From: Loxodes magnus
Taxonomy: Eukaryota; Ciliophora; Karyorelictea; Loxodida; Loxodidae
Reading direction: 5' to 3'
Assembly: GCA_946699065.1 (NCBI GenBank)
Contig: CAMPDV010000686.1
Coordinates: 62,001 to 126,000 of the forward strand
Length of the DNA: 64,000 bases
Positions 7,960 to 52,200 of the stretch are shown here, in pieces. The translations under genes and the position numbers were made by a program. Under the pieces are notes generated by a model. It saw nothing but the letters and a program-made list of their open reading frames with translations. It was not told the origin of the DNA and did not search any database. Position 1 is the first letter of the stretch, and each line of letters opens with the position of its first letter.

Positions 7960-9125
7960 GAATGAACCTAAAAATTAGCTGCTGGGTTAGATACCAATTT
8001 TCATATAAGTAATAAGAAATAAAGCAAGTTGAATATGACACCTAAGACCTAAAGTCTGTTTATAAGATAATAAGGTGATCACATTAAAGTAGTTATTAAA
8101 TAAATACTTTATAAATAAATGAAGTCTAAATAAGAGTCAATAACTCCTGTCTTATTTCTTCGATCTATTGGGAAATAAAAAAGAGGGAACAAACTTGCTA
8201 GACTATATGGTAAGATTCCTATCCTTCTGTCTAAATACGAGATATTCAATAGCTACTAGTATAACAACTAATTCGTCTATCATTTGTAGAATGGAAGCTG
8301 CTATATGTATGTCTATTGGGTTCTTAAAGATAAGCTTTTAGAAGTAAATATAAAAGAAGAAATACCTAATTTTGCTGCTAACTTGAAAGTGAATAATTTT
8401 GTATATATAATAGGAGGAAATTACTATTAAACTGGAGTATATGATGCTTGAAGTATTAATATTAATAGTTAAAAACTTAGTTGACTACCTAGGCTACTTC
8501 TACCAGTAAGTTCATCAGCAGCTGCGTATTTTAAAAACGAAATTTATGTAATAGGAGGACATTTATCAATTAGAAAGATAAAAGATGTTCAATGCTATAA
8601 CTTAAAAGAAAATAAATGAAGGAAAAAATCACCGATTAAATAAGAAAGGTCAGAACATCAAGCAGTTGTTTATAAGAGCAAACTCATGATTTGTGGAGGA
8701 AGTTCTGATACCTAAGAGTATTCCAGTTTTGAAGTGTACGATGATATAAACGATAAGTGAAGTGCTAGTGACATAACTTTGCCAGCTCCATATTTGTGCT
8801 TTGGAATTTGGCCTAAACCTTTGATGATTGTAGGAGGATATAATATAGCATATGACTAAGTTAACAATCTATTTATCATGAGCAACTAAAAAAAATGAAA
8901 AGCATTTCCTTTTGAACTTCAAATAGGAGTCGAGAATCCTATACTTTTGATAAGAAACTAGATCTATATGATAAGGAAGCATTCAGCCAAATGTTCTGTA
9001 AAAAGATAAATAGAAGGCTAGAAGGTAACTGACTAAAATTTAGAAGCGACTTCTAATCAATAGCATTCCATAATGATATATTAGATAACTATGTCAGAGC
9101 ATGATTTTGCGTGATGAATCTGGAG
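7960..9125 (+). CDS. Kelch-repeat protein
   Basis: The frame that is clear from about 8210 shows successive kelch blades. Double-glycine turns are VYIIGGN at 8401, YVIGGH near 8545, MICGGSS near 8690 and MIVGGY near 8825. Each is followed by a Tyr and a Trp at kelch spacing (YDAW, NKWRK, DKWSA, KKWKA). Most of these Trp are TGA (8449, 8617, 8758), which supports the TGA=Trp reading. Five or so blades suggest a beta-propeller scaffold, a fold usually used for protein binding. The N-terminal 250 bp is charged and uncertain. No start or stop can be fixed. The partner and process are unknown. Confidence 0.72.
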
Positions 9126-10389
9126 GAAATAACGCTATTTTACTTTAAATCTAAATATCTTTATATTATATTAAGAAAGGCCATCTTGTTATGTTTAAAT
9201 CAGTTATATTAATAAAACTTAACTTCTAAGAATAAGATTGAAGGAAACTGAAAAATTAATTTTCTTCAGCGAGTGATTTCAGCTTGTTGTAAAAATATCG
9301 AACCTAAAGAAAAAAATCCGGATCTAAAAAAAAGCAATTCATCACGCTATCCAATGAGTAATTTTAACTCCCTTGATTAATTTAACTAAGAAAGGATAAT
9401 TTTCTCAGAGTAAGGCAACATAAAAAGAGTAAGGAGAACAAATTCGTTTTAAAGATTTAGTATTAAACTGAAATTTCAGTAACAGAATGCTTGATATTTA
9501 TAGTTGTTATGAAGCAATATGCAAATGAAGATATGCTCACATCTTAAATCCTTCATACCAAAATAAAATTTCTCATGCCTCAGTTTTGTAACAGCAAAAG
9601 GTATTTTATACTATTTTGCTTTCAGCTTGACTTTAGGATGGCACTACAATTCTAGTTATAATTCGTTTAATAGCTATTATTTCACTTTATTTCTTTAAGG
9701 TAATAAAATAATTAAAGCTTATTGAAAGAGTTTATCTGAATAAAGAAGGAAAATTAATCTACAAAAAATGAAAAAATCTATTGGCATCATTACTAAGCTC
9801 TTCCCAATTCCTTATTCATCTATAAAAGGACTAGAAATAAAAATCTCTTTTACCTTTCTATTCTGGGAAAGATTAAGAACCTTTACATCCGTATTAGTTG
9901 TCAAAGAGCTCATCTAGCTTTCAGAATGATTTTATATCCTTAAAATGACAGTTGGCTTAATTATTTGCTTATTAACTAGTTAATGGATACTCCTAATTAG
10001 CTATATATGCACTAAAGTTTAAATTTAGTAGTTCTTTATTAAATTAGTTAAATAAAAGGAAAGTATCTAGAGTTAATGATTGATATTCAACTATTAAATT
10101 AAATAAAAAATAGTATTTCTCTATAAGCATAATAATAATACAGTCTATAAGCATTAAATCAAACTCTAATTATTCTACATTATATTAGCTAAATCTCTAC
10201 ATTTATAATTACAAGAATTTATAAAAGATCATTATAGCTAATTTTCTTTTCAAAACTCAAGAAAGTATCACTTGCTATCTCCCTAAGCTATCATTGATTA
10301 TTAACGAATATATAACAGATAAGGTTTTTCTTATGAAAGATAAGTTTTTCTAGTAAATAATTTATTTATCATTTTAAATAGCTTAACCA

Positions 10390-11170
10390 AAATAAAGATA
10401 TAAAAGCTATAGAGAAGCTTACCTTATTTAAGCAGATAATTCTGAAGCTATATATGCTTAGGATATTATCAAAGATTATACGGATTATAGAGCTTTCTTA
10501 GTTTGTCCTTTTTCAGGCGATTTTTCTCAATAGTACAATTAAAGAAGCATATTCTTATTTTAAGTTTCTAGAGTTTCCTCTCTTAAATTCTAAAGATCCT
10601 CCTTTTTAAAAGAGAAATATAAATGTTCAGTCCTTTATTATATCTAAGAAGTGGGAAAAGCAATAAAGCTGGAATAGCTTATCAATGTCATATTCGTTTT
10701 AACCAGCTAGTTATTCTACGAAATTAGAAAATGAAAATATTAGCAAAGTTATTCTAATGTAGTTAACGTTTTATCCATTCCTCACGAAAAAAACTTAGAT
10801 GTAAATAGTGTGATTTGGATGATACGCAACAAAGGTACATTCTTCAGGCCTAGGTAGTGATATTTAAGAAGATAGAAATTAGAATAAGAATAAGACTAAA
10901 TAAAGCAATATGATGAGAACATAATTTCGTTGATTAGTGATATAAAGGAATGGAATAAATTATATTACTTATTTTATTGATGGAAGCTGTCCTTCAGATT
11001 AATTAATAGCAGATCTGCTAAAATATACAGAAAGATAATTTTCTAATTAAAAAAGTAACTTACTCTAAAGCAGTTTAAGTATGAAGCATTACAAATTTCA
11101 TCTGCAACCTCTAGAAAGAATTCAAATATGTAGATCAGGATTCATTTTAGGTTCTTAGCAGTTGCAAAAA
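10390..11170 (+). CDS. Hypothetical protein, degenerate or unknown
   Basis: One frame with TAA/TAG=Gln reads as plausible protein (for example TIKEAYSYFKFLEFPLLN and SFIISKKWEKQQSWNSLS, with Trp as TGG and TGA). I recognise no domain. It lies upstream of a stretch that is related to 15.7-16.4 kb. The start and end are not defined. Confidence 0.3.
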
Positions 11171-11730: not shown

Positions 11731-11739
11731 TTATTTTCT

Positions 11740-16440: not shown

Positions 16441-16980
16441 TATTTTTATAGATAGTCAGGTAGTAAAACGTTCGGAGTTATAGAAGGATTTTTAACTACT
16501 TTCCCGCTAATTATAGGGATAGCTTCAGAAACTAAAATTAACATTGAAAATTTTCTATCATCTCACTCTCTGCCTTCCATACTCCGCTTGAGGTCTTCCA
16601 TTTCTCTGTCTATACTTTTCTTCATTGTTCTTGTAAAATGATCCTAGCACATCACAGTATAGTCTTTCTGTTACCTTCACAAATTTAATAAGTTTAGGAT
16701 TATTACTAGATTTGTAATGTAAATGAATTTTATTGTAGAAAAGTGTTAATAGATAGTTAAATATAGAGTGTAAGATATAAAATGGATGTAGGTAAAATTG
16801 TTTGATAATAATAAGTTTAATTAAAGGAAAATAGTTATCTTTAATTATAAATTAAGTAGTTCATAAACTATTAATATTAAATATGTAGGAACAGATATAA
16901 TATACTATTATAGCAAAGTAATCATCCTAATTACCAAACTATTAAGAACCTATACCAATTCTAATTATAAACCTGCCTGA

Positions 16981-19060
16981 AACTAAAAAGGATTAGTTTT
17001 AAACCGTTTATAGAAATATGAAGAAGCTATTGAGTGCTTTGACAAAGCTATTGGACTTGATCCTTATGACGTGACTGCCTATCACTATAAAGGATTAAGT
17101 TTAAACTTTTTAGAAAGAGATATTGAAGCTATAGAGTGCTATGATAAGGCTATAAAACTCGATCCAAGAATACTAACTGCTTATCACTAAAAAGGACTAT
17201 CTTTACACTATTTAGGGAAATATTAAGAAGCTATCGAGTGCTTTGACATATCTTTAAATCTGGATCCTAATTTAACGAAAGCTTATCATAATAAAGCATT
17301 AACTTTATAAAAGCTAGGAAAATATGATGATTCTATTGAGTGCTATAACATAGCTATATCGAAAAATCTTAATGACGTAACTGCCTACTACAACAAAGGA
17401 TTAATTTTAGCAAATTAAGGAAAATTTGTCGAAGCTATTGACTGCTACGATAAGGGAATTTAAATTGACTCTAAAGATAAGAATATCTATCACTAAAAAG
17501 GACTTGCTTTGGCTAAACAAGGTTAGATGAATGATTCTATTGAGTGTTACAATATGGCTATACAACTTGATCCTACCTACGCTATTGCTTACTATGATAA
17601 AGGATTAGCTTTAATTTAATTACAAAAATAAGCTGAAGCTTATTAATGTTTCAATATAGCAAAAAGTTTAAGTCCTGACTCAACAATTATCTACTAAAAT
17701 AGTGAGTAACAACTAGACGCTTTAGAAAAATATGATATGACTAAATAATACTAAAGCATAGTTAGTCCATTAAACTACAAACAAATTGAAGATAAGCAAA
17801 TCTAAGAAGAAAATATACCAACATAAAGTTAGGAACATTAAGAAATTCAGGTTTTAAACTTCTCGTTTTAATAAAGATCACAGTAACATAGTCAGACTTA
17901 AAAGTCAACTACTATAGATGATATTTGAAACCTTCTATTTGAAAATGGAGCTGGATTTAATGAAGGATCTAGAATAAGAATTTGAAACTTCTAATAATTA
18001 ATCCCTAACTAATAAGCTTTAAATAGCTTGAAAGTCTTAGGCAAAGGATCATAAGGCAAAGTCTATCTTAAAAGTATCGAAGGCTTTAATTATGCGCTAA
18101 AAGTAATTAACTAAGAGGAAAATATTCAAGAGTTGATAGATAGTTTTTATAAAGAATGCAAAGCTCTCCTAGAAATAAACAGCAATAGAGTTCTAAAACT
18201 CTTAGGGGTATCAATTGACACTTCTGTAATAGGGTGTTATCGATTTTGCCATTTAACAGATTTTATGACTAAAGGAGTTTATTTAATGCAATAAATAGCG
18301 GAAAATTATTCTCCGATTATTAAAAAGCATCTCCAATAAGATTTTATAAGAAACTGAACTTATTAAGTTAAATAGCAGAAGGAGTTGAAGCAATTAATTG
18401 CAAGAATCTAATTCATAGAGATCTTAAATCTTAAAACATTTTACTAGATGATTATGATAATCCTAAAATAGCAGATCTTGGTCTTGTTAATGAAGCTAAT
18501 ATAACTACTACTTTGAAATAAAGAGGCTCTTACTAATGAATGGCACCTGAGTTATTTGATAACAAAGTAAGTTAAAAAAGTGACATATGGTCTCTTGCTT
18601 GTGTTGCGGTTGAGATTTTTAATGAAAGTCTACCTTATTCGAATCAAGCTTCATTGGCATAAATAATAAAAGCAGTTAGTGTTGATTAACAAATTCCTTT
18701 CTTTAAAAGTGAAATAACATAGGAACCTGAATTAGCTAAGCTGTTATATAAATCTCTTATATATAACTAGAGCTAAAGACTAGATATCTATACTTTTAAA
18801 AGTTAATTAGATTAAATAAAGTAAAAATGAAAAGAGTTAAGCTATTAATCATAGAATGCTTCAATCAAAAGAGAATAGCTATCTAACTAGAAACATGAAA
18901 TTAATTAGGTAAGAATTATATACCATAATCAGCAAAATCTACCATCCTAGAAGAATAGCATAGACTCAGTCTTTCAGAGATTGAATATCTAAACTATTGA
19001 TCAAAGTTTTGAAAGCAAAGATACAAATATGAATAGATTAAAGCTGAATTGAATGAAATT
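16981..19060 (+). CDS. TPR-repeat protein kinase (seven TPRs, catalytically complete motifs)
   Basis: Seven 34-residue TPR units run from 16981 to about 17694, each of the pattern (H/Y)xKGLxLxxLxKYxEAIECYDxAIxLDPxxxxAY. A Q/S-rich linker follows. The kinase domain starts near 18022 with glycine loop GKGSQGKV and ALKVIN, the probable VAIK lysine. It continues with HRDLKSQNILLD near 18412, DLG in place of DFG, YQWMAPEL near 18535 (Trp is TGA at 18537), SDIWSLACV, and the C-lobe to about 18830. All motifs needed for catalysis are present. One frame change is needed near 18262-18290, between LTDFMTK and SLFNAINSG. It could be a 1-nt deletion, a programmed shift or an assembly error. The N-terminus before 16981 does not stay in frame, so the start is unknown. 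TPRs normally bind peptides or partner proteins, which suggests a scaffolded Ser/Thr kinase; the substrate is unknown. Confidence 0.85.
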
Positions 19061-25403: not shown

Positions 25404-27800
25404 ATGTCACAACCAACTTAGTATAATCGAAAAGGAATCTAATTATTCAAAGAGGGAAATTATCTTTAAGCTATTGAGTATTTCAATATAACTTTAATAT
25501 TAGATCCTAAAGATGCAGTTGTATATAATAACAAAGGATTGACATTGGTAAAGTTAGGGAAATACTAAGAAGCGATTTAAAGCTATGATGTAGCTCTTAA
25601 ACTAGACCCTAATGATGCAGCTGTACATAATAACAAAGGATTTACATTGGTAAAGTTAGGGAAATACTAAGAAGCGATTTAGAGCTATGATGTAGCTCTT
25701 AAACTAGACCCTAATAATCCAACTGTACATTGTAACAAAGGATCGGTATTGGAATAGTTAGGGAAATACTAAGAAGCGATTTAGAGCTATGATGTAGCTC
25801 TTAAACTAGACCCTAATGATGCAGCTGTACATAATAACAAAGGATCGGCATTGGAAAAGTTAGGGAAATACTAAGAAGCGATTTAGAGCTATGATGTAGC
25901 TCTTAAACTAGACCCTAATAATCCAACTGTACATTGTAACAAAGGATCGGTATTGGAAAAGTTAGGGAAATACTAAGAAGCGATTTAGAGCTATGATGTA
26001 GCTCTTAAACTAGACCCTAATGATGCAGCTGTACATAATAACAAAGTATCGGCATTGGAAAAGTTAGGGAAATACTAAGAAGCGATTTAAAGCTATGATG
26101 TAGCTCTTAAACTAGACCCTAATGATGCAGCTGTACATTGTAACAAAGGATCGGTATTGGAATAGTTAGGGAAATACTAAGAAGCGATTTAGAGCTATGA
26201 TGTAGCTCTTAAACTAGACCCTAATGATGCAGCTGTACATAATAACAAAGTATCGGCATTGGAAAAGTTAGGGAAATACTAAGAAGCGATTTAGAGCTAT
26301 GATGTAGCTCTTAAACTAGACCCTAATGATGCAGCTGTACATAATAGCAAAGTATCGGCATTGGAAAAGTTAGGGAAATACTAAGAAGCGATTTAAAGCA
26401 TTAACAAAGCTATTCAGCTAAATTCTATTCTTCCAGAATTTTACTAACATAAAGATTATTCACTTTATTAGCTAAGTAATTTTTCTGAAGCAATCTAGTG
26501 TCTTAACACAGCTATTTAGCTTAATTCAAATTATGCAGAAGCATATTACTACAAAGGTTTATCTTTGTAAGCTTTAAACAAAACTATTGAATCTCTCTAA
26601 TGTTTTATTGAAGCTAATAAATTAGACCCCTAGTTTAAAATTCCCTAAATAGATATTGATTCTTTAGATATATAATAATAAAATTGCATTACTATAGATC
26701 ATATATGACAGCTTTTATATTAAAATGGTGCTGGTTATGATAATAATTCTAAAATTAGAATATTGAACTATAGAATCTTAATTCCTAATATTGCATTTCT
26801 AGATAACTTATAAGAATTAGCTAAAGATTAGTACGGAATTGTCTATCTTATTACTAATGAGGGATATAGTTATGCTCTTAAGCAATTTAACTCAAAGTCT
26901 GATCAATAGAAATTAATAGATTAGTTCTATTATGAGTGCAAAGAACTTCTATTAATAAATAGTTCAAGAGTTAAAAGACTTACAGGAGTTGCTATTGATA
27001 CTTAAGAACAAGGAAGTTACTATTTATGCCTTTTAACTGATTTAGAGTTTAAAGCAAGTTTATTATAATCAATTTAGACTAAGTAGCTATTCAAAGAAAG
27101 TTAAATAGGATCTCCTTTAAGATATTACTAGAAACTAAATTTACTTAGTTAAATAGCAGAAGGATTAAAGGCTATTCACTCTAGAAACTTAATACATAAA
27201 GAACTAAAATCTCTAAATATTCTACTAGATAAGAAATATTAACCCAAAATAGTTATTTTAGGATTATTCGATTCGACTCATTGGTTAACAACAATAGAAT
27301 AAAGAGGATTACATTAATGAATGGCTCCTGAATAATTTGAGTAATAAGTTACTTAAAAGAGCGACATCTGATCTTTAGGTTGTATCGGAGTGGAGATATT
27401 CAATGAAGAAATGGTTTATCCAAATATAAATGAATAAGAATAACTAAAATAAATAGTTTATATTAATAAAATGATTCCTAGGTTTTCAAACGAAATACTA
27501 TAAGAACCTGAATTAACTGATCTATTTTACAGATGCTTAGTTTTCGACCAGAACATTAGACCTGATATAGATTATTTTATAAATTAGATAGAAAGATTAA
27601 AATAAAAGTGAAATCCATAAAGATAAGATGGAGATATAAGTTAGTAGGGTCAAACTAAAAAAATGAAGTAAGAATAAAGTATAAAATAATAAAGTTAAGG
27701 TTAAGTTTTTTTATTAGAGGAAGACTCATAAGAATTCAAGTTTGAAAGTTTAAAAATAAGTAAGATGGATGAGAAAAAGAGTTGAAGGGAGAAACTTTAT
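25404..27800 (+). CDS. TPR-repeat pseudokinase with homogenised TPR array
   Basis: ATG at 25404 (MSQPTQYNRKGIQLF) opens directly into TPR 1. About nine near-identical TPRs follow, then more diverged TPRs to about 26640, a Q-rich linker with LLYQNGAG (shared with the 17-kb paralog as LLFENGAG), and a kinase domain from about 26760 to 27615. In the kinase the glycine loop is degraded (AKDQYGIV). The catalytic loop reads HKELKS near 27193, where active kinases have HRDLKS, so the catalytic Asp is Glu. The DFG/DLG site reads ILG. The fold motifs LHQWMAPE (Trp is TGA), SDIWSLGC (TGA) and a C-lobe Arg are kept, and I saw no frameshift. This points to a maintained pseudokinase rather than a dead gene. 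The end is uncertain; the frame stays open past 27800. Confidence 0.85.
25516..26396 (+). repeat. 102-bp tandem repeats (34-residue TPR units), about nine copies
   Basis: The marker AGTTAGGGAAATACTAAGAAGCG recurs at 25552, 25654, 25756, 25858, 25960, 26062, 26164, 26266 and 26368, a strict 102-bp period. Units are almost identical at the DNA level, including silent sites. Two variants alternate: one with NDAAVHNNK(G/V), the other with NNPTVHCNKG, so the early part has a 204-bp higher-order period. This indicates recent unequal exchange or gene conversion. Confidence 0.95.
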
Positions 27801-29170: not shown

Positions 29171-29974
29171 CTTACTTTCCATCGATTAAGTTTTTATCTT
29201 TATCGCGACTCAGTCTTTTTCTGAGAAATTGAGCAGAGCTCACGAAAAGAATTTTCTTAACTCTAAGCTTTATTTCATACTCTTAAGTTCTTCAGTTTAA
29301 TCGAGATTCAATCTTATTTTGAGAAATAGTTAAGAGCTTCAAGTAGAATTCTTTCATTTCTTTAAGTTCAAGTTTCCACGATACGAAAACTAGCTTTATC
29401 GCTTATCAATATTTCTATGAGAACTCAAGTATAATGGTTTAGAACGAAGCAAAAATTAAGTAAATAAGTACTTCCGCTTTTTCGCTTCTATGACAAATTT
29501 TGAGAAAAAGAACTTAGTTCTTAAGAAAAACGGAGTCTTAACTTATAGTTCGACTCAAAGTCTTAAATTACGACAGATTTATTGTTTCTAAGAATTGTAA
29601 TTTTATCTAGAACAGAGCTCTCTAGTAGAACCGAGTCTTGACTCCTTGTTACACTAATATTCTTTTAGTACTTAATGTTACAAGCCATTCTCGACCTTAA
29701 ATGTGATCTAGAACAGAACTCTCAAGTTCATCGAAGTTAAAAAACCGAAATACTTCTTTCATTCTTAAATTATTTCAGATTTATGGATTCTAAGACTTTA
29801 TATTAATCCATAACAAGCTATCGAGTTTAACGGAATCTAAATTAAAGTGAATTTTTAAACTTGTAAGTTTTAAGCTTTAAAACTTCTAAGAACTGCCATG
29901 TCATCTAGAGACGAGCTCTAAACTAAAATCGAAACTTAACTCCTTTTTCTATTGCAAGTCTCAAAGTATTTCCG

Positions 29975-30885
29975 CGTTATCGATTCTAAGATATTATTTG
30001 AGACTATAAATAGATCTTAAGTATAAGCGAGTCTTGATATCTCGTACAACTCCAAGTCTTTAAGAATTTGAAATTTTTATCTTAAAGAACTGCAATTCGA
30101 TTAAGTGCTAAGCTCTCGACATTGTCCGAAACTTCTTTCTTATCTATCTCATAGACTTAAATTACTTCCGAATTGTTAAATCTCAGATTTGTCATGTTAT
30201 CTGGAATAGAACTCTCAACTTAAATCGAGTTTTGACTTCTTGTTATACTCATGATCTTTTAGAATTTCCGCATTATCGCTTCTAGGTTTTTATTTAAGAA
30301 CTTTAAATAGCTCTTGATAGAAACAGTACTCTGATTCTTGTTCTTCATCAATTCTTTAAGTACTTAAGTTTTGAACTTCTAAGACTTGCAATTTGTTTAC
30401 GAGAAGAGCTCACGACTATAACCGATACTTCTTTCTTATCCCATAGACTTAAATTACTTCCGAATCGTTAAATCTCAGATTTGTCATGTTATCAGGAACA
30501 GAACTCTTTACTTAAATCGAGTTTTGACTTCTTGTTATACTCATATTCTTTAGGTACTTAATTTTAAAGCTTTCTCGACCTTAAATGTGATCTGAACAGA
30601 ACTCTCAAGTTCATCGAAGTTGAACATTTAAATTCTTCTTTCATTCTTTAGATACTTCAGATTTATGATTTCTAAGACTTTATATGTTATCTAAAGAGAT
30701 GTCAAGTATCACGAATTCTTAACTCAAAGTTAAATTTTAATTTTGTAAGTTCTTCAGATACTAAGCTTCTCAGAATCGATATGATAGATAAACAGAGCTG
30801 TCGAGTAAAACGGAAACTTAACTACTAGTTCGAATTCAAAGCTTTAAGTACTTCAGTCTCATGGATTCTCTGACTTATTATGATA
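29975..30885. repeat. Higher-order duplication inside the array, copy 1
   Basis: This ~0.9-kb block recurs at about 32828-33735 (offset about 2.83-2.85 kb) with long identical runs, for example from GATAGAAACAGTACTCTGATTC near 30322 and 33152 onward. A few units carry small changes. The block duplication is much younger than the divergence among single units. Confidence 0.85.
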
Positions 30886-32827
30886 ATCGAGCAGAGCTCT
30901 CAAGTAGAACGGAGACTCGATTCGTAGTTCAACTTCAGATCTTTAAGTATTTAACTCTTTCGAATTCTCAGACATTTATGTGATAGGACCAGAGTTCATA
31001 AGGTTAAAGGTTCTAACCTCAAAATTCAACTCTAACCCTTTGATTATTTCTTTTTTAAGCTTTCAAGGATTGATACGTTATCAAGAACTGAGTTCTAAGG
31101 CTCATCGAAAATAAAAACAGAAGCTCTTCTAACATTCTAAAAGTACATATAACATGACTTTTCAGACTAAACATGTGATCTAAAACGGGGTTCTCGACAA
31201 TAGCCGAGACTTGTTTCTTAATTCTACTCCAAGTCTTAATAAACTTCAGATTTATTGATTCTTAGACTTATTATGTTATCTAGAAAAGAATTTTCAACTT
31301 AAATTGAGACTTGACTACTTGTTCTACTCCAAAGCTTAAATTGCTTTCCCTTTATCGCTTCTATGATTTGACTTGAGAACTATAAAGATCTCTTGAGTTG
31401 AAACTATCTTTACTTCTTTTTCTTCTGCAAATGTTTAAGTACTTCAGATTTGTAACTTCTAAGAACTGCTATTTGGCCTTGAGCAGAGTCACGACTATAA
31501 ATTGAGACTTCTTTCTTAATTCTACTCCAAGTCTCTAATTACTTCAGTTTTATTGAATCTAAGAATTCTCATGTTATCTATAACAGAGCTCTCGAGGTAA
31601 ACCGATACTTTACTCCTTGTTCTACTCCGAGTCTTTAAGTACTTAAATTTATAGCTTCTCGACCTTAAATGTGATCTAGAACAGAACACTCAAGTTCATC
31701 GAAGTTAAACACCTAAATCTTCTTTCATTCCTGCGATACTTAAAGTTTACCGCTTATAAGACTTTTTATGTAATCTATAACAGAGCTTTCAATATAACAG
31801 AACCTAAATCCAAGGTTCATTTTTAAGTCAGTAAATTCTTCATATACTAAATTTCTCAGAATCGATATAATAGACAAACAGAGAAAAGAACCGAGATTTG
31901 ACTTATTGTTCTACTCCAAGTAAGTACTTTATATTTATTGTTTCTAAGAATTGATATGCAATCTAGAAAAGAGCTCAAAATCAGAACCGTGACTTGATTC
32001 TCAGTTCATTTTTAATCTTTAATTACTTCAAATTATCGCTTTATAAACTTATTTAGACAATAAGACAGAACTCCTAAACTTCATCGAAGTTAAAAGCCGA
32101 AATTTATCTATCATTCTTTAAGTTCTCCAGTTTTTTCGCTTTTCAGATTTGATTTTAGAAACAAGAAACGAGCTATTAAGTTTTTAGTATTCTAAACTTA
32201 AAATTCTTCTAACAGTCTTTTAAATTCTTCAGCTTTATTTCTAATCAGACTTATATGATAGATAGAATAGAGCTCTTAAGTAGAACGGAGACTTAACTCG
32301 TAGTTCTACTCCAAGTTTTTTGTACTTCCGCTTTATCGCTTCTTGGATTTGTTTTGATAACAAGACAAAGTTCACAAGTTCAACTAAGTTTAAAATAAAT
32401 TTTCTTCCTTCATCTTAAAGTACTTCCGATTTATCGCTTCTCAGACTTATTTTAAGAACTTGACTCTAAACTATAACGGAATCAAAGCTCAAAGTTCAAC
32501 TTTAAGTATTTAAATTCTTCAGCTTTATCGTAACTTTGACTTAATATGAGATCTCAATTATAACGGAATCTTAACTCAAAGTTCTTCTTTCATTTTTTAT
32601 TTTTTTAGTTTTATTTATTCTCAGACTTGATTTTATAACTAGATCAATCTTTTTATTAATTTGAGGATAATTCAAGGTTCAGCTTTTAAATTTTGGCTTT
32701 TCTCGATACTTAAACTTGCTTTTCTAACTATTTCACTTTCAATCTTCGTTAGTCTTTAATTTTCTAATTCAAAACCTTTGAAATTTTCGACTAGTTTCTA
32801 TATTCGGACTTTCTTTCAGATCTTGCT

Positions 32828-33735
32828 TCTAAGATATTATTTGAGACTATAAGTAGATCTCAAGTATAAGCGAGTCTTGACACCTCGTACAACTCCAAGT
32901 CTTTAAGTATTTGAAATTTTTATCTTAAAGAACTGCAATTCGATTAAGTGCTAAAGCTCTCGACATTGCTCGAAACTTGTTTCTTATCTATCTCCGAGTC
33001 TTAAATTACTTCATAATTTTTTTTCTAATATTTATAACTTTAACTGGAACAGAACTCTCAACTTAAATCGATACTTAACTCCTTTTTCTACTCCTTGTCT
33101 TAAAGTATTTTCGTATTATCGCGTTCAGAATTGAATTTAGTACTACAAATAGCTCTCGATAGAAACAGTACTCTGATTCTTGTTCTTCATCAATTCTTTA
33201 AGTACTTAAGTTTTGAACTTCTAAGACTTGCAATTTGTTTACGAGAAGAGCTCACGACTATAACCGATACTTCTTTCTTATCCCATAGACTTAAATTACT
33301 ATATAATTTTGTTTCTAAGACTTATTGCGTTATCTGGAACAGAACTCTTTACTTAAATCGAGTTTTGACTTCTTGTTATACTCATATTCTTTAGGTACTT
33401 AATTTTAAAGCTTTCTCGACCTTAAATGTGATCTGAACAGAACTCTCAAGTTCATCGAAGTTGAACATTTAAATTCTTCTTTCATTCTTTAGATACTTCA
33501 GATTTATGATTTCTAAGACTTTATATGTTATCTAAAGAGATGTCAAGTATCACGAATTCTTAACTCAAAGTTAAATTTTAATTTTGTAAGTTCTTCAGAT
33601 ACTAAGCTTCTCAGAATCGATATGATAGATAAACAGAGCTGTCGAGTAAAACGGAAACTTAACTACTAGTTCGAATTCAAAGCTTTAAGTACTTCAGTCT
33701 CATGGATTCTCAGACTTATTTTGATAATCGAGCAG
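32828..33735. repeat. Higher-order duplication inside the array, copy 2
   Basis: This is the counterpart of 29975-30885. The shared sequence ends at the right edge of the array near 33735 (AATCGAGCAGAG), where unique AT-rich DNA starts, so the last event is at the array boundary. Confidence 0.85.
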
Positions 33736-33739
33736 AGAA

Positions 33740-36590
33740 TAAAAAACTGAAAGTAGCAAGTTCAAACGAACCAAAAAACAACTTTAAAGTACTAACCTCA
33801 GAGTTAATAAATTCATTAAAGTATTTAATTGATTATTTATTATATTGGAGCATTACTAGTTAAATTAATAAATTATTAAGATTACTAGATTCAGTATCTT
33901 TAATTAAAGATAGCCTAATTCTGTATAATACTTCTTATTTATGTATCTTAATAAATTAACAAGATACATTAAACCTTTAAATATACTATATATTTCATTC
34001 TAAGCTTTTATTTACAAGAAATTTGCTAATAAGTATCAATAAATTAATTTAAAAATAAAATTTAGCTTTAAAACTTTTTTATGGTAGTTAATATTTAAGG
34101 TTTATTTTAACTTAGAGATATAAGAAAAATCAAAATAGAGTAAAAAAATCTAAATTAAGAAAAGGGAAGTTAAGCAGATAGAGTTTTAAAAGATTTGATT
34201 GATAATGTTTTCAAGAGACTAAAGTATAGATGTTGTTGTAATTTTGGGGTTTAAATTTATGCCTATTGAATAGTGTAGTGAATGAAGCAGAAATTCAATC
34301 TAAGATATTGCAAAGTAGGAGAAAAGGACAGCAATTTTTTATATTCCAAAGAAAATAAAAGATAAACGCAATTGAAAATTTTTGATTTAAGATAATCAAG
34401 AAAATGAAAAACTTAAAGAGTGTGTACAATTATACTTCTTTGAGAATTTAAATCTCAAACTATTGCATGAATGTTTCAATCTACATTTTATAAAGGCCAT
34501 TGAATATTTGTAGTTCTAGAAGGATTTGCACTTTTTTGTTTTTTTCAAAAGGACAATTCTTAGATTTATAAGTTCAAAATAAACATTTTGGCAACCCCTT
34601 TGGACATGTACATTTCTCATTTATTCGCCGCTTTTTTATTTATGGCTTTGATTAATTAAATTTTAGCGACTTCGTTTTTTAATTTAGAAACACCGGAATT
34701 CTATAATTATTTAATTCTGTTTTAAAACTTTTGTTATTCTATTTTATATTAAGAAACACTTGTTAAACCACGCTCAGTATCCAATCTGTAACTACTTGAA
34801 AGCTTAAATATTTTTTAAATATCAAGCATGCCTTTTTGTTGCAATTGATTATTTTAATTTATTCAGAAAAATGGTAATTTAGCAGCTATTTAATTCTAGT
34901 TTGTAAGTGATAGTCTTGAATCTTTTAATTAATAAACTTAAATTTAAGCTTTAAAACTTTTTTCTTTTAGGTTTAATTTTTTTCTCACTTTCATTATGTT
35001 TATTTAAATCCTTTCTTATTACTACTAAAGACTGTATTATTTTTAAATCTTATGACTAAAGTCAATTAGACTAGGATTTATTGTGACAATCATTTTAGTT
35101 TTAAATAACTTATATTAGCTAATCTAATACTTATATTATCTAATGCTTATTACAAAGAAGCATATTGTGTTAAGTTTACTCTTTCTATTAATTCAGAAAA
35201 TAATAATAGAATATAGTAAAAATATATTTTCTTTCTTAAAAATGCTTATAATTTTCTTAATAGCAAACAACTTATTTTAAGAAAGAGAGTATTAATGTAG
35301 TAGCAATATAATATAGATTTATATAGAATAATAGAATTAAGTTTTTATCTTTAAATAATCTAGAATAATTTAGGTATTAATAATTTGAAATGATAATTAC
35401 AAAAATAACATAAATAATAAATATAATATTAGTTTGCTATAAAAGAGAAAGTTATCTAAATGTGTTAATTATAACTAATCTAATATCTTTATTAATTAAA
35501 GAGAAATTAATTAATAACTAATAAAGCTAAAAGGATAAAATATTAAGTATTTAATAGACATAATTAAACATATTAAAGCTTATTTTAATAATATAATTAA
35601 ATATTACTATTTAATAATTATAAGATAAAATTAGTGATACACCATTTATAGTTAGTTTAAATATTTACTTTCTACTACTTATATTTATTACATTTATATA
35701 ACCTATTTTACTTAGAATCAGCATTATAAGTAATAAATGATATTAGTTTATTATTTTAAGAGAGACCTTTATAAATAAAAAGTTTTAATGAAATAGTAGT
35801 AAGAAAGTGGACAATTAAAAGATTCTATCTTATAAATTATAAAAATTGCTTTGTTTTAAATAATTTGATTTTTTTAATTTCTATTTAAGCTAATTAATAA
35901 GAAACTTACTTTATTTCATTTTTTTTAATTAGTAAATAGCTTAAAGAAATAATTTTTTGATTAGATGTAAGAGAAAAATAATAATTAATAACAGTAGATT
36001 TAAAAAAATGGCAATATTTTATTTATAATTTAAAAGAGTCTACAACGAACTAAGGTTTTCTTATTAAGAGTCTTTGATTTAAAGCACAAATAAGTAGTAA
36101 ATGTATATTAAAGTTATTATAATAAGGAAATAAATTCTTCGTTATAAACTTTTGATATAATAGATTATTCTTTTATTTAAAAGTAAAAAGATATAAAATA
36201 ATTAAAATTGTAAAAGCATGTACACTATTAGTTTAATATCTTGTCTTGCTTCAAAACAAAAATAGAAAAATCAATGATTTAGAAATAAGATATTTATAAG
36301 TATGCTTAATAAATAATTTAATTATTTAATTATATTGAAATTGAGTCGTAAAATTTATAGAGTTATTTTAATTAAATAATTATTGAAGTAAGTTATAAAA
36401 ATTAAAATGGAGAAAAAAGAAAAGCAATTTACTAAAAGTATTTTTTTAAGAAAACTCTTAAGAGCTAGAAGCTACATTTTAGGAAAAGTATCTCTACTTC
36501 ATTTTAAGTATGAAATTCTGCCTAACTTATGCTACTAAAATTAAATAAATAAGATTAGCTATGACCAAAGTAAAGGTATTTCTTTAATAT
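33740..36590. other. AT-rich interval with a weak coding-like patch
   Basis: Most of this is simple AT-rich sequence. About 34170-34400 reads in one frame as a Cys- and Lys-containing stretch (KRLKYRCCCNFG, YCKVGEKDSNFLYSKENK), which I cannot assign. Nothing else is supported. Confidence 0.35.
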
Positions 36591-37350
36591 TTTTTAGGCT
36601 AAGTCCTTACTGGCACTTCACCTGTGTTATCGGTAGCCATATCAAGTGACCTGAATTAAATTGTATCAGGTTCAGAATATCCTGAAAATTCGATAAAGAT
36701 TTGGAAATTCCAGACAGGTGCTCTCCTAAGAACTATAACAGGACATACTTCTACTATTTGATCGGTAGTAATCTCCTCAGACTCTAGATATATTGTATCA
36801 GGATACGAAGACAATACTATAAAGATCTGAAATTTCCACAATGGTGATCTCCAAAGAACTTTGTCGGGACATACTGATTGAGTTAGATCGGTAGTAATTT
36901 CCTATGGCTCTAGATATATTATATCGGGATCTTGGGATACAACTTTAAAGATCTGGAATTTCTAGACTGGCCAGCTTGTGCGAACTCTTACTGGGCATTC
37001 AGAATTAGTTTGATCGGTAAAACTGTCTAAGTATAATAGGTATATAATATCTGGTTCTGGCGACAGTACTATTAAGATATGGGACTTCTCATCTGGTTAG
37101 TGTATTCGTACTCTTTAAGGTCATAAAGGTGGTGTACGAAGTATTCAGTTAAGTGTTGATTCAAGTGTAATATTTTCTGGTTCTTATGACAGAACAATCA
37201 AGATCTGGAACTTTAATAAGGGTGAGTGTATTAAGACTTTATAAGGGCATATTGGATGAATATATTCTATAGCATTGAGTGTTGATAATAGATGGTTGGT
37301 ATCGGGAGCGGGTGACAATACGATAAGAAAAAAGAGGGTTTCGAGTTGAG
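36540..37350 (+). CDS. WD40-repeat protein
   Basis: Seven consecutive blades of about 42 residues are visible, for example GHTSTIWSVVISSDSRYIVS and SGYEDNTIKIWNF. Later blades have GSWDTTLKIWNF, GSGDSTIKIWDF and GSYDRTIKIWNF, and the last ends at GAGDNTIRKK. Trp at conserved sites is encoded by both TGG (6) and TGA (5), and TAA/TAG encode Gln in LRTLQGH. Seven blades make one complete propeller, a protein-interaction platform. A KVKV...LGQ linker just before blade 1 is shared with the kinase/WD40 pseudogene at 3.0 kb, so this may be a relative that lost or lacks the kinase. The last blade lacks its closing Trp and runs into AT-rich sequence. Start and stop are unclear. Confidence 0.85.
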
Positions 37351-37744
37351 TAACTTGCTATTTGACTTAATTTAATTTTACGATTAAATATAAGATATTG
37401 GTTATTCATTTAAATGAGTGTTTAATGCTAATAATGTTTGTAATTTTATGAAGTGTTTGCTTTATATTTATTAAAAGGTTGTACATTCTTAAATATTCTT
37501 GGTTTAAAAAAGGAATAATATAGGTTATTAAAGATAGTGAGGTATGTTGATTTAAAGTGGTAATGTTTAAGAATATTTTAAATATAATTTTGTTAAATGA
37601 AGACATGAAATAAGTTTAAATTTTATTTTTATTTTATAAATTTTATAGATTTATTTTTAGATTTTGTAAAAATTTCAAGTTAAGTAAAAATTTTAATTTT
37701 TTTTTGTGGAGTAGTTTAAATATTATATATATATATAGTAAACT
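37351..37744. repeat. AT-rich stretch with (TA)n at 37722-37737
   Basis: No gene is supported. A short TA microsatellite sits directly at the 3' end of the ORF1-like element to the right. The plus-strand copy of that element likewise ends next to a (TAT)n run at about 45185-45207. Confidence 0.5.
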
Positions 37745-38553
37745 AAAAGTAATTAAATTTTAGCATTCCCTGGATTTTCAACCAGGTTTTTGCTACCATT
37801 TTTTTAGCGTGGATGGATACCACGCCATTTTTTTTTGTGGATGGAACCACTGAGAATCTTCTGTCTTTTATAAGAATATCTTCTTCTTGTAAATTCCCGT
37901 TTCGGTGATTCAGAGTCTGCTAAGCATTCTTAACGTTCTTTGTTGTTCTTTCATCTAAATTTATCTCCACTGATCGCAATTTTGTAATAGGTGTCACTTT
38001 GATTTGCAATAATAGCAATTTTTGATTGGTCTTTTCTTGAATCTCTTCAGAAATACTTTTTTTTCAAGTTAATCGATTCTTTGGAGTAATTCTATATTAA
38101 TCTTTTCGTCATTCTATTTTTCTTGGATGTTTGTTTATGTAGAAACTTTTTCAATAATCATATTTTGTTCTTGCTTAAAATTCGATTGAGATTATTCATA
38201 TAGTTACTATTCCGTGACTAAATTATTTTAAATCAATTGTCGTCTTATTATTAGTAGCTCGTTGTTTTAATCTTCGATAGTATTCATTAGTTCTCTTATT
38301 TTTTCCCCTTGATTGTAAATTGTTTCCTAATAATTTTGTATTATTGTTTTCATTTAGTCAATTTATATTTAGATTTCTGATTATTTTTGTACTTTTACTG
38401 GATTCGTCTCTATTGTTCCAATTATAACTTTTCCTTCAGATGAGGAACTTGATTTATCTTCTTCTTGTTATTGTTTCTGCATTAGTTTCGCAGCTTTCCT
38501 TTTTGCGTTCTTAATTTGGTTTTTGGAAAGGCGAATAGATTATTCCATTTTTT
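37745..38553 (-). mobile_element. Retroelement ORF1-like gene with CCHC knuckle, minus copy
   Basis: ATG at 38553 starts MEQSIRLSKNQIKNAKRKAA. An SSSSEGKVIIGTIE motif, a long Q/E/L coiled coil and a basic stretch follow. A zinc knuckle CX2CX4HX4C (CYYCKSKWHLLQNC) lies at 37976-38017, with Trp as TGA. Knuckle plus coiled coil is typical of the RNA-binding ORF1 of non-LTR retrotransposons. A plus-strand relative lies at 44460-45195 with the same order. The gene ends in a series of hairpins (37769-37850) and then a TA repeat. It appears unbroken in frame to about 37860. No ORF2 follows on this side, so it is either a non-autonomous element or a cut one. Confidence 0.75.
37769..37850 (-). promoter_or_regulatory. 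Chain of hairpins at ORF1 element 3' end
   Basis: Four inverted repeats follow one another on the minus strand: GTGG/CCAC (37837-37850), GCGTGG/CCACGC (37807-37825), GGT/ACC (37785-37797) and CCTGG/CCAGG (37769-37786), separated by A-runs. The plus-strand copy has hairpins in equivalent places with different stem and loop bases. A role in template recognition by the reverse transcriptase is a guess based on known LINE 3' stem-loops. Confidence 0.7.
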
Positions 38554-44459: not shown

Positions 44460-45195
44460 CCAACGAGAGGAGTCAAGTTCGTCATCAGAAGGTAAAGTGA
44501 TGGTAGGATCTATAGAGATAAGATAACCTAAGAACGAATCTGATCAAAAACTTTAAATTTAACTAGATCAAATGTAAAAATTAATTTCAAAGTATGAAGA
44601 AATAGCTTATAACTAAGGAGAAAAAACAAGGGAATTAATGAATAGCATAGAGGATTAAAAAAACGAATTATTAATACTCAGAAGACAGCTCATTCAAAGC
44701 AATTTGATAACGGAAGAACAACTCTGAACTTAGTCACAATAAAACTTTAAATATGACACGAAAATGGAAATAGAAAAAATACCAATAGAATTAAAAACAG
44801 AATTGAATCCAGAAAAAGAAATGATTGCTGCAAGTTTCATTAAAAGATTAGAAAATATAGAAAATAAATTATCATAAAAAAGAACGAAATAAAGACAATA
44901 ATACAAACTTTGTTGATGTTGCAAATCAAATCAACATATTTTAAAAAACTGTTGATAATGAAAGAAAATAAACGAATAAGAGCAGAAAAGAACATGGAGA
45001 CAACTCAATAAACTATGAATAACTCCAACAGGGATCTACAAATAAAAGCTTTTTGCAAGACCACTTGAACGGTTACAGTGATAACCTTCCACTTAATAAA
45101 AAGGTCGTGGATCACACCCACGTTAAAAAAACTGTCCGCAGGAACTGGTTGCAATTCCAGAGAGTGCAAAACTCTACTAACTTTAAGTATATTAT
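44460..45195 (+). mobile_element. Retroelement ORF1-like gene with CCHC knuckle, plus copy
   Basis: This is a relative of 38553-37745: SSSSEGKVMVGSIEI, the same QLDQM coiled coil, NQGEKTRELMNSIEDQKNEL, and a knuckle CWCCKSNQHILKNC at 44911-44952 (CX2CX4HX4C). The terminal WITPTGIYK matches WITETGIYK of the other copy. Divergence is large, but knuckle and coiled coil are kept, which suggests past selection. The N-terminal 30 residues seen in the minus copy are not clear here. It ends with hairpins and a TAT repeat about 200 bp before tRNA-Ala. Confidence 0.75.
45071..45173 (+). promoter_or_regulatory. Chain of hairpins at ORF1 element 3' end, plus copy
   Basis: Four consecutive inverted repeats are present: GGTT/AACC (45071-45086), CGTGG/CCACG (45106-45122), CTGG/CCAG (45144-45159) and AGAGT/ACTCT (45159-45173). 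The second and third match in place and partly in sequence to the minus copy, with stem bases changed in pairs. Confidence 0.7.
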
Positions 45196-45404
45196 TATTA
45201 TTATTATAAATGATTATAATTAGTCTATTAGGATAACTTTAATATTGCTTTAAAGTTGTTGGTTGTATATAAATTATTTTATATAAATAAGGGATAAAAA
45301 TTGGAAATGTATTTGAGTTCATTAAAATATAAACTATAAGAATTCTTAGATAACTTAGAAACTAATTTTTAATATTTAAGAAAACGGTGAGGCTATAATT
45401 AAAA

Positions 45405-45477
45405 GGGAATCTAGCTCAAATGCTAGAGCGCTCCTTTCGCATACGAGAGGCAACGGGATCGATACCCGTGTTCTCCA
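45405..45477 (+). tRNA. tRNA-Ala(CGC)-like, degenerate
   Basis: Cloverleaf of 73 nt: D arm GCTC...GAGC, anticodon loop TTCGCAT (anticodon CGC), T arm ACGGG/CCCGT with GATCGATAC-like loop and B box GGATCGATACC, discriminator A. The acceptor stem has two mismatches and one G-T pair, the anticodon stem has a C-C mismatch, and the D loop lacks GG. It is probably a pseudogene or a tRNA-derived repeat. Confidence 0.7.
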
Positions 45478-48650: not shown

Positions 48651-48654
48651 TCAT

Positions 48655-48840
48655 CCGTAAAATCCTAAAAAAATTTTATAAATTAAATATTGCAACATAA
48701 ATTTTTACAACAGAAAAAAATTACAACAGAAAATTTATAACAGAAACTTTTATATCATAAAAATTTTTATAACAGAATAATTTATAACAGAAAACTTTTA
48801 TAGTAGAAACTTTTAGAATTAAAAAAATTATTACTTTTAT
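48655..48840. repeat. Minisatellite of TTATAACAGAAA type
   Basis: Irregular copies of (A)TTTATAACAGAAA and ACTTTTATA occur eight or so times. Units are 15-25 bp and imperfect. Confidence 0.7.
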
Positions 48841-49334
48841 AATTTTCCAAATACTTTCTTTTTATACTCTTTAAATTATTCAGTACTCTCTCTTCTCACA
48901 AAACACTATTCCCAATCTTTATTATAAACAATTATAAATAAACATTCCACTATTCTTAAAACAAATTTTCCTTTTAAAATACTTAAACAATAACGTAATT
49001 AGTCTTTTAGATTTAAAAAAACACATTCAATTCTTTATTTAGTACATACTTACTTCCTCTTTGACACAAATTTAATCATAATCCAAATTACATACTCTTG
49101 TCTTACATACACATCAACAATTTAAACAAAAACTTATACCATTATACTTTATTATTAATATTATATTTATTCAACTACATTGACACTTTGTTATTTTGCT
49201 ACTTTATTGCTTAGAGTCGTAACTCAACTTTAGTATATATTAAATACATTATCATATCTTTTTAACTTTATAATATCATTGTAATTTTTATATATGAGTT
49301 TAATAGTATAACAAAATTATAGATTAGTATTATA

Positions 49335-49485
49335 ACAGTATAACAGTATAACAATATAATAGTATAACTGTATAACAATATAATAGTATAACAGTATAAC
49401 TGTATAATTGTATAACAGTACAACAGTATAACTGTATAACAGTATAACTTTATATCAGTGTAACAATATAACAGTATAATAGAGT
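49335..49485. repeat. 8-bp minisatellite (GTATAACA)n
   Basis: About 17 consecutive units of GTATAACA, GTATAACT, GTATAATA and the like are present. It lies about 250 bp past the C-terminal end of the minus-strand WD40 gene. Confidence 0.88.
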
Positions 49486-49739
49486 GCTGTTTATTTAAAT
49501 ACTTAAATTCATTAATTTAAATAAATATATTAATTTAATAAGTTCATTAATTTAATAAAAACATCTCATCTCATACTTCTATTCAAGTCCTACTCACTCA
49601 TCTATATGTTGTTTGTTTCACAATTACTCAATCTCATTCCATAATGAGCATATACCTCATTCCAATCCAACTACTTTATTATTAAATTAATTAAATTGAC
49701 ACCTACCTATCCTACAGATTCATCAACACTTAACAACCT

Positions 49740-52200
49740 CTATACATTCCATCTTCTCAAGCTACCAATACCATCCCCAGAATAGATCCATCTTGAATCC
49801 CTTGATAATGTCAACGACCATATTGAATATTCGTGACCACTCAAAGTTAATACACACTAACCAGCTGAAAAAGACCATATCTTTATTGTTAAGTCAGCAG
49901 AGGCTGATACTATGTATCTAGAGTCATAGGAGATTACTACCGATCTAATACGATCAGTATGTCCCTCTAAAGTTCTCAGGAGAGTACCCTTGGGGAAATT
50001 TCAGATCTTTATGGTTAAGTCATGTGATGCTGATATGATGTATCTAGAGTCATAGGAGATTACTACCGAAGAAATAGTATTTGCATGTCCTACTAAAGTT
50101 TTAACACATGAACTAGATAAAAAATCTCAAAATGAACTTTATAACTTTCATATCTTGATAGTTTTATCATCAGATGCTGATACTATATATCTAGAGTCAT
50201 AGGAGATTACTACCGAGGAAATAGAATCAGTATGTCCCACTAAAGTTCTCAGGAGAGTACCATCACGGAAATTTCAGATCTTTATGGTTTTGTCAGATGA
50301 TGCTGATACTATATAACTAGAGTCATTGGAGATTACTACCGAGTTAATAGCAGAAGTATGTCCCTTTAAAGTTCTAAGGAGAGTATCATTAGAGAAATTT
50401 CAAATCTTTATGGTTAGGTCATCAGAGGCTGATATGATATATCTAGAGTCAAAGGAGATTACTACCGAGTTAATAGCAGAAGTATGTCCCTTTAAAGTTC
50501 TCAGGAGAGTACCATTAGAGAAATTTCAGATCTTTATGGTTTTGTCATCAGATGCTGATACTATATAACTAGAGTCAAAGGAGATTACTACCGAGATAAT
50601 AAAAGAAGTATGTCCCTTTAAAGTATTGATTAAGGCAGATGCTTAATAATCTCAGACCTTAATTGTATTATCATATGAACCAGTGATGATATATTGATTG
50701 TCAGGAGAGATAGCTATTGATCTGATGCATCAGGAATGACCTTTAAGTTCATGCGGATACTCAGTTGCTATTTCGGATAGATCAGCATTACTCAATACAC
50801 AACCGATAAACTTAGTATTCCTTAAATTACATAGATGGAAACTTGAATTAGAGAAATCACATTCAGTAAATATCATGTCCGATAGATCTGCTTGCACTAA
50901 TCTCATGTTGGAGAAATTTTATTATGATGCAAACTTAACATTCAGGTAGTTAAGTATCGTTATCACATTCGATGATAACTACGATACTTCCTATGATTTC
51001 CTAGATAACTCTAACACCTAATTTAATTTATTACCCAGTTATATATCTTATATTCTAGATAACTATAATAAGATCGATGTCTAAAAGGTTAAGCTTGAGT
51101 GATTTAAAGGATATTACTTCAAATATTAAATATCGATACTTTGTTGTTGTATTAGTTGGTTTAAAATTTGATTTAACTATTCGAACGTTAGAGTATTGAA
51201 ATTCACTAAGGTTTATTTTATCAAGTTTGGCTGCTCTTACAATTATTGAACTTAAAAGTTCTATTACTCAAACTAAAGTTCAAGGATATATTGAAGCAAC
51301 TGCTAATCTTTTCTTTATAGAGTACTTGAAACTTCTTGGTATATTTTAAACTGAGATTAGTCTTTTTATATTAGTTACTCTTAAACTTATTATTTGTCTT
51401 AATTTTAGTGTCTTAGGGAGGCTTAGTCTTAATATAAGTATTATAATTATTAGTTTTGTTATATACCTTATTATTGGAGATCATAAACTTGTTATTGTTG
51501 AAACTACTTTTATTATTATTGACCTTAACATAGACCACTTACTACATTTTATTAACTGAAATAAGATTCTATTAACTAACTAGCTTTTTAATAAGTTAAT
51601 ATCTAACCCTATGAATGATCTCTCAGAAAATTGAAGGCATTTAAGAGATATTACTGAATATTGTATCGCAAACCTTAATCACTCAAATTTAAATTTTATT
51701 CTTACTTCATCTCATTGATTTCTCTTAGTATTTCCGTAAATTACTACTATTATTCTTATAGCTAATACTGATTTGCCTACTGGTGGATATGCTAGCGCTA
51801 TTACTATTATTAAATGTTGAGTTCCGATAATCGATTCAATAAATTCTTAATCTTATTCACTCTTTAAGTATATTATTCTATCAAGATCTTAAATATTCAT
51901 TTAATTACCTACTAGCAGATATTATTCCACTACTAACTAACACCATTAATAACATTCCTTATAAACTATAGCTACTCTTATTTCTAATTCTATTAATCCT
52001 ATAACCAATCGAGTAATTGATTTAACCATAATTAATCCAATGCACGAAGTTGTTGAGGCAACTAAGGCTATTCTAGTTATTGTATCATAAAGTTTTGTAG
52101 ATCCTAAGGCCTGACATTAAAAGTTTGTTGATGATTCGTGCAAACTATCAATTACGTAATCTAGAATACTGTATTTAAACAGTTGAAACATGAAATGCAG
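49740..52200 (-). CDS. P-loop-like, pentapeptide-like and WD40 protein
   Basis: Eight WD40 blades lie at 50750-49780 on the minus strand, each about 126 bp, with consensus LRTLKGHTSAINSVVIS and SRYIVSASDDKTIKIWNF. Several are nearly identical in DNA. Upstream, 50935-50770 encodes pentapeptide-like repeats (VQADLSDMIFTECDFSNSSF, then HLCNLRNTKF and NADLSEI). Further upstream the same strand has AYPPVGKSVLA near 51795, like a Walker A site whose first Gly is Ala. The whole would resemble STAND-type NTPases that carry a WD40 sensor. The upstream 1.2 kb is low-complexity I/L/V/T and only weakly protein-like, so the NTPase part is inference and may be decayed. Trp again uses TGA and TGG. The start is unknown; the end is near 49740. 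Confidence 0.7.

Follow-up and report, generated by a model that had tools for sequence, protein, structure and literature searches.

Genes and reading frames of the window

The 64,000-nucleotide stretch of DNA analyzed here (the window, to which all positions refer) is AT-rich and eukaryotic, and its genes use TAA, TAG and TGA, the three stop triplets of the standard code, as sense codons. Under the standard code the longest stop-free stretch in the window is 124 codons, over ribosomal DNA (rDNA), so that standard gene callers would find almost nothing in it. The original prediction that all three stops are used as sense codons is confirmed, with TGA seen at 8449, 8617, 8758, 18537 and 27318; the kelch frame contains two further TGA triplets, at 8482 and 8896.

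Two genes, TPR-kinase gene 2 and a RING-like/coiled-coil/WD40 gene, each keep a single frame between a presumed ATG and a terminal TGA (Table 1). Where no triplet acts as a stop, an open frame is not evidence in itself; the evidence is that distinct parts of a protein lie in the same frame, as do the TPR and kinase domains of gene 2, and the WD40 domain and a Cys-rich N-terminal motif (seen by eye) of the RING-like/WD40 gene. The 74 internal stop triplets of gene 2 comprise 48 TAA, 22 TAG and 4 TGA, and 70 of its 78 Gln codons (90%) are TAA or TAG. In the RING-like/WD40 gene there are 107 such triplets (58 TAA, 40 TAG and 9 TGA), with TAA or TAG making up 98 of 129 Gln codons (76%). Its N-terminal RING-like Cys pattern and its coiled coil are by-eye assignments, Pfam giving no match in the N-terminal 459 amino acids.

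The TPR part of gene 2 includes nearly nine tandem 102-base units (25501-26399, ~93% matches), a recent expansion within the gene. Kinase 2 (26700-27614) is probably a pseudokinase, as the catalytic Asp of HRD and the DFG-like Asp are both lacking (HKELKSLN and ILG, by eye); kinase 1 retains HRDLKSQN and DLG, also by eye. Just beyond the end of the RING-like/WD40 gene lies an 8-base tandem array (TATAACAG, ~18 copies, 49331-49479).

Table 1. Features of the window and the basis on which each was assigned
Feature	Positions	Strand	Basis and remarks
Kelch-repeat gene	8302..9114 (coding part seen)	+	Pfam kelch; five internal TGA; ends TGATGA (9112-9117)
TPR-kinase gene 1, paralog of gene 2	16954..19052 (coding part seen)	+	Pfam; ends TGA 19050-19052
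TPR-kinase gene 2	25404..27785	+	Pfam TPR, Pkinase; one frame, presumed ATG to terminal TGA, 793 codons
WD40 repeats	36522..37349	+	Pfam; 5 internal TGA, 6 TGG, then TGA 37347 where homology stops
RING-like/coiled-coil/WD40 gene	49566..52277	-	WD40 by Pfam; one frame, presumed ATG to terminal TGA, 903 codons
Gag-like CCHC knuckle frame	44701..45301 (stretch searched); knuckle 44911-44952	+	Pattern search, paralog alignment; no Pfam match
Homologous CCHC knuckle frame	37400..38299 (stretch searched); knuckle 37976-38017	-	Pattern search, paralog alignment; no Pfam match
Endonuclease of a non-LTR-type element	60199..61200	+	Pfam Exo_endo_phos_2, 29.4 bits (cut-off 27.4)
Kinase-WD40 relic, copy A, frame broken	2303..3262	+	Pfam kinase and WD40 fragments; more kinase motifs by eye, in another frame
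Kinase-WD40 relic, copy B, frame broken	57513..58560	+	Pfam fragments in three different frames
rDNA relic: 3' part of small-subunit (SSU) gene, 5.8S, 5' part of large-subunit (LSU) gene	1..1889	-	Rfam
rDNA relic: SSU 3' part, 5.8S, LSU to model position 2659/3401, then SSU 5' part	52498..57209	-	Rfam

UGA as a tryptophan codon

The meaning of the stop triplets was inferred from homologs by translating the WD40 and kinase regions, including the relic pieces, with all three triplets masked, aligning them to database homologs (the best 120 of 411 WD40 matches and all 29 kinase matches) and deriving a residue for each codon from the resulting profiles. Among standard codons with at least four columns, which served as controls, 46 of 50 were called correctly; the miscalled codons were CTC, CAA, GCC and CGT, with 4 to 6 columns each. 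TGA is called Trp over 21 columns by a margin of 61.6 nats over the next residue, which among the codons scored is exceeded only by that of GAT (64.8 nats). The masked sequence of kinase 2 gave no homolog at an E-value of 0.001 among 348 candidates.

Scoring Pfam models under alternative codes leads to the same assignment. In the kelch region, Kelch_1 scores highest, at 71.4 bits, with TGA read as Trp, the best of ten residues, the next being Phe at 63.2 bits. In kinase 2, where four residues were tried, Trp gives 110.3 bits as opposed to 96.7 for Cys, 94.8 for Arg and 94.0 for Gly. Codon exchange between paralogs inside the window, comprising 968 aligned codon pairs of homologous genes, identifies TGG as the strongest partner of TGA (7 pairs vs 0.2 expected), and one conserved WD40 Trp column contains seven TGA, five TGG and one Lys codon.

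Some of the particulars first put forward for TGA need to be narrowed. The statement that it falls only where Trp is expected is overstated, in that 9 of the 21 TGA columns are dominated by Trp, two of the nine being copies of one relic. At the kinase position next to the APE motif, TGA is indeed present, but the column is mostly Tyr rather than a conserved Trp (Y 0.61–0.68 vs W 0.16–0.23 in 29 homologs). For the CCHC knuckle, TGA stands opposite TGG in two pairs, opposite TGA in one and opposite Tyr, Gln or Asp in four. The WD40 count of five TGA vs six TGG holds if the TGA at 37347, at the end of homology, is omitted, and becomes six vs six if it is included.

UAA and probably UAG as glutamine codons

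For TAA, the masked profiles call Gln by 11.3 nats (28 columns), with Glu outside the top three residues. Pfam scoring of kinase 2 likewise places Gln first for TAA (110.3 bits, followed by Glu at 104.6, Lys at 104.4 and Tyr at 97.8). When TAA and TAG are varied jointly, the order in kinase 1 is Gln 106.6, Glu 103.5, Lys 102.6, Tyr 93.2 and Leu 88.8 bits, and in TPR region 1, scored with TPR_1, it is Gln 189.4, Lys 185.6, Glu 184.7, Leu 169.9 and Tyr 150.7 bits. Varying TAG by itself in kinase 2 gives 110.3 bits for Gln, 109.7 for Lys, 109.2 for Glu and 101.2 for Tyr, the first three thus lying within 1.1 bits of one another.

In the internal exchange, TAA and TAG are each other's strongest partner (5 pairs vs 1.1 expected), and one TPR column contains six TAG, five TAA, six GAG and one GAC. 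TAG also stands opposite the ordinary Gln codons CAA and CAG twice (0.5 expected). Such pairs point to the same or a similar meaning for TAA and TAG, without showing that this meaning is Gln. The genes employ UGA as Trp and UAA as Gln, and they do so under purifying selection, as discussed below. The reading of UAG as Gln is only partly supported: it rests mainly on exchange with TAA, and Gln, Glu and Lys are not separated. The original prediction had placed both TAA and TAG at Gln positions, which the profiles bear out for TAA and do not for TAG.

Several of these tests weigh against a glutamine meaning. The top profile calls for TAG are Arg, Lys and Gly (18 columns, at least 6 of them in relics), and CAA itself, an ordinary Gln codon, is among the miscalled controls (5 columns). 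Three other TPR models applied to TPR region 1 rank Lys or Glu above Gln by 0.5–3.5 bits, and on TPR region 2 TPR_1 prefers Glu for TAA (322.6 vs 309.4 bits for Gln) as well as for TAG (Glu 313.3 and Lys 310.4 vs Gln 309.4). In the internal exchange, TAG stands opposite Glu four times (1.3 expected), about as strong a signal as that for Gln, and the standard partners of TAA are led by Asn (9 vs 5.1), Glu (7 vs 3.9) and Lys (11 vs 7.1), ahead of Gln (2 vs 1.5). BLOSUM sums over the internal partners, uncorrected for composition, favor Lys for TAA and Glu (24) over Gln (22) for TAG.

One might therefore ask whether UGA here encodes Trp while UAA and UAG (UAR) encode Glu, as in the Blastocrithidia code (NCBI table 31), or whether UAG encodes some residue other than Gln. 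The Glu preference in TPR region 2, the TAG profile calls and the exchange of TAG with Glu all speak for this possibility. The TPR region 2 scores, however, count nearly one column many times, because one unit is repeated about nine times there, and it is in that region that Glu is ahead for UAA; for that codon the profile test, both kinases and TPR region 1 (TPR_1) all rank Gln above Glu. For TAG, taken alone, the preference for Gln amounts to only 1.1 bits, but the triplet exchanges best with TAA. We regard this alternative as most improbable. Blastocrithidia resembles the window in that all three stops are sense codons and TGA is Trp; it differs in that TAA here is Gln in the profile test and both kinases, with TPR region 2 giving the opposite result.

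Reassignment and decay

The same triplets could in principle have arisen by decay, in pseudogenes of an AT-drifting genome in which C-to-T and G-to-A changes turned CAA, CAG and TGG into TAA, TAG and TGA. Parts of the window have indeed decayed, and the earlier verdict of "not decay" does not hold for the window as a whole. Positions 1-5172 and 55303-60470 form a segmental duplication of 5.2 kilobases (kb), 94.1% identical, that carries truncated rDNA and the two frame-broken kinase-WD40 relics, the latter with a mean column identity of 98%. Differences between the duplicates, counted in 500-base bins, run at 6–8% over 1-1500 (rDNA), 2–4% over 1501-4000 and 7–9% over 4001-5000, and 169 of the 263 are transitions, as decay of this kind would produce. 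In both rDNA copies the 5' part of the SSU gene is poorly matched, and the pieces are truncated and rearranged; in the copy at 52498-57209 an SSU 5' piece lies apart from the rest, downstream of the LSU part. Neither copy has an exact match to universal motifs of the SSU 3'-end region. It is because they are partial and rearranged, with these 3'-end motifs lacking an exact match, that the rDNA pieces are taken as relics.

A further point that could be read as decay is a one-base frame change in TPR-kinase gene 1, in a T run near 18255 (18250-18262), which reflects either a mutation or a sequencing error. A programmed frameshift was considered here and dropped, because the case stands alone, lies in a T run and can be put down just as well to mutation or to a sequencing error. 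A short intron was also sought at this point, but does not fit the paralog.

The conserved columns argue for reassignment. Conserved-Trp columns contain nine TGA, six TGG and neither TAG nor TAA. Since TGG mutates to TAG as easily as to TGA, the absence of TAG counts against decay; with the duplicated relic counted once (eight TGA), its chance is ~0.004 if the columns are independent, which the tandem WD40 repeats are not fully. Stop triplets also avoid conserved columns of residues other than Trp and Gln, occurring in 7 of 375 vs ~22 expected from their overall share (two of the seven being duplicate relic copies). The ratios of nonsynonymous to synonymous substitution rates (dN/dS), computed under the reassigned code, are 0.317 for the kinase, 0.427 for the WD40 and 0.173 for the TPR pair, the CCHC pair being saturated; three paralog pairs with values below 0.5 point to purifying selection. 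Finally, separate domains remain in one frame across 793 and 903 codons in genes that write most of their Gln codons as TAA or TAG. Reassignment rather than decay, as originally predicted, is thus supported by masked profiles, Pfam scoring of alternative codes, paralog dN/dS and the shared frames of two long genes, and decay as an account of the sense stops is hardly credible.

Gene ends

The end of each gene was set at the first TGA that follows its last residue with homology, a rule that could not return TAA or TAG ends. By this rule the ends fall at 9112, 19050, 27783 and 49568-49566, four of four being TGA, which is weak evidence because of the way in which they were picked. Kinases 1 and 2, however, both end 11 codons past a common FES, and such homologous end positions in two paralogs do support UGA as a stop. 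The GC content drops after each of the four ends. In the pre-end codons TAG occurs 4 times in 80 and lies 10 codons before the kelch end and 8 codons before the WD40 end; TGA is excluded there by construction. The reading of UGA as terminal codon is only partly supported.

These ends bear on the choice between two NCBI codes whose sense meanings are the same. In L. magnus (table 27), UGA is the only stop, and UGA and UAA, though not UAG, are depleted over the ~20 codons before it (PMC11441545). In Condylostoma magnum (table 28), all three codons can also terminate translation, and all three are depleted before gene ends (PMC4967479). A Condylostoma-type code would account equally for every sense assignment made here, and just four ends were examined. 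The TAG triplets close to two of these ends (10 and 8 codons before them) lie where C. magnum depletes all three codons (PMC4967479), and the uniform TGA ends, weak as they are given the TGA-seeking rule, also differ from C. magnum. Table 28 is accordingly an unlikely, though not a far-fetched, description of the window, and the gene ends lean toward table 27, short of proof. The depletion of UAA expected under table 27 is seen as 2 TAA in 80 pre-end codons vs 71 in 1665 codons of gene bodies, a difference that is not significant.

Genetic code and lineage

We consider it likely that the window comes from the nuclear genome of a eukaryote that uses NCBI table 27, a Loxodes-like karyorelict ciliate being the most probable source. 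UAA and UAG would then specify Gln throughout genes, and UGA would specify Trp inside the gene body but termination near the 3' end of the mRNA. From published work, one would expect UAA and UAG to be decoded by stop-cognate Gln tRNAs and UGA by a tRNA-Trp, with release-factor action favored close to the poly(A) tail. In the model proposed for such codes, tRNAs outcompete the release factor within the message body, and the release factor prevails near the 3' end (PMC4967479). Reassigned stops of this kind have already been described for karyorelict ciliates and are not new; the original attribution to a known karyorelict or Condylostoma code agrees with the accounts in PMC4967479 and PMC11441545.

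The likeness to table 27, the code of Loxodes magnus and Parduczia sp., extends from in-gene TGA as Trp and TAA as Gln to TGA at the four inspected ends. The window shares with karyorelicts of this table the presence of TAG close to two ends, GC-poor DNA in which GC falls past gene ends, and rDNA within chromosomal DNA; L. magnus is reported to have short 3' untranslated regions and chromosomal rDNA (PMC11441545). It differs from them in that no intron was identified in the window. The Blepharisma code, with UGA as Trp and UAR as stop (PMC6935857), shares TGA as Trp with the window and differs from it in that TAA and TAG are sense codons here. Another point against table 27 comes from the available portion of PMC6935857, in which the sampled karyorelicts, including Loxodes, have UGA as stop and UAR as Gln, and UGA as a sense codon is unreported.

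The same codon meanings might also be found in a different lineage. The dinoflagellate Amoebophrya sp. ex Karlodinium is reported to read its three stops according to context, with Gln and Trp as the probable residues (PMC12005148), and would on this account be a candidate. What speaks for a ciliate is the rDNA. A ciliate-specific reverse primer matches both SSU relics, with one and two mismatches. The corresponding forward primer matches nowhere in the window, which detracts from the ciliate assignment. A search of viral and prokaryotic contigs for a 24-base 5.8S pattern gave no exact match. An origin in another lineage with these meanings seems very unlikely to us, and the karyorelict assignment under table 27 is the one we retain.

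Other features

The Exo_endo_phos_2 endonuclease listed in Table 1 lies in a 334-codon stretch containing 16 TAA, 2 TAG and 3 TGA. Codon-usage gene finding seeded on the known genes picked up rDNA first and, once this had been masked, returned ten segments. Additional Pfam searches took in three frames of a single strand at 57.3-60.3, 60.8-63.8, 28.5-31.5 and 3.0-6.0 kb (forward) and at 29.5-32.5 and 32.0-35.0 kb (reverse), together with single reverse-strand frames at 21.0-22.5 and 20.5-23.0 kb; in these stretches only kinase and WD40 relics rose above the cut-off, a Cas6_I-A match of 20.2 bits falling below its cut-off of 27. A cluster of diverged repeats occupies 29526-33737, with offsets of ~1.1 and 2.8 kb among others and roughly 65–92% identity, and none of the frames scanned there matched a Pfam family above its cut-off. 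The stretch from 30 to 34 kb is C-rich.

The window holds one tRNA family match, at 45405-45477 (Rfam, 36.7 bits), which by eye is a tRNA-Ala and for that reason uninformative on suppressor tRNAs. ARAGORN reported no tRNA gene in the window, this one included. A set of 197 tRNA matches obtained under permissive local settings was taken as spurious and ignored.

Frequency of sense UGA and its implications

In six gene pieces with 2939 codons in total, 28 are TGA (0.95%), and the two long frames have 13 among 1696 (0.77%); Trp is written as TGA in the majority of cases (28 of 46). By comparison, UGA makes up 0.120% of codons in Parduczia, 0.042% in Condylostoma and 0.059% in Blepharisma (PMC4967479), such that the share in the window is far above those of Parduczia and Condylostoma. 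No figure for the sense-UGA share of L. magnus was found in the literature searched. Among the sets of synonymous codons compared, the A-ending share is lowest for Trp (0.61) but near the others: Lys (0.68), the two Gln sets (0.68 and 0.71), Glu (0.75), Leu TTR (0.75) and Arg AGR (0.82).

Sense TGA persists to within 57 codons of the end in TPR-kinase gene 2 (codon 736 of 793) and to within 72 codons of it in the kelch gene (8896). In the RING-like/WD40 gene, Trp is TGA at 9 of 12 positions before codon 800 and at none of the 5 beyond it (Fisher p 0.009, with the split chosen post hoc). It is tempting, if rather doubtful, to suppose that in this organism most Trp codons are UGA, at a share close to that of A-ending codons in other sets, even though UGA also seems to be the only stop, and that in one gene it yields to UGG toward the 3' end. 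Sense UGA may be rarer in expressed genes, since PMC6935857, in the portion available, treats UGA as the karyorelict stop; in the light of that treatment, the high TGA share seen here may be nothing unusual in the genus, or else a peculiarity of gene families rich in repeats. Were the supposition to hold, the context of termination would override an essentially fully reassigned codon, unlike the situation in Parduczia and Condylostoma, in which sense UGA is rare.

Few codes without a dedicated stop have been described. In such a code, translation must distinguish sense from stop by position on the mRNA. With UGA as the majority Trp codon, long genes and paralogous gene ends, the window is a useful place in which to test how far upstream of the 3' end UGA remains a sense codon.

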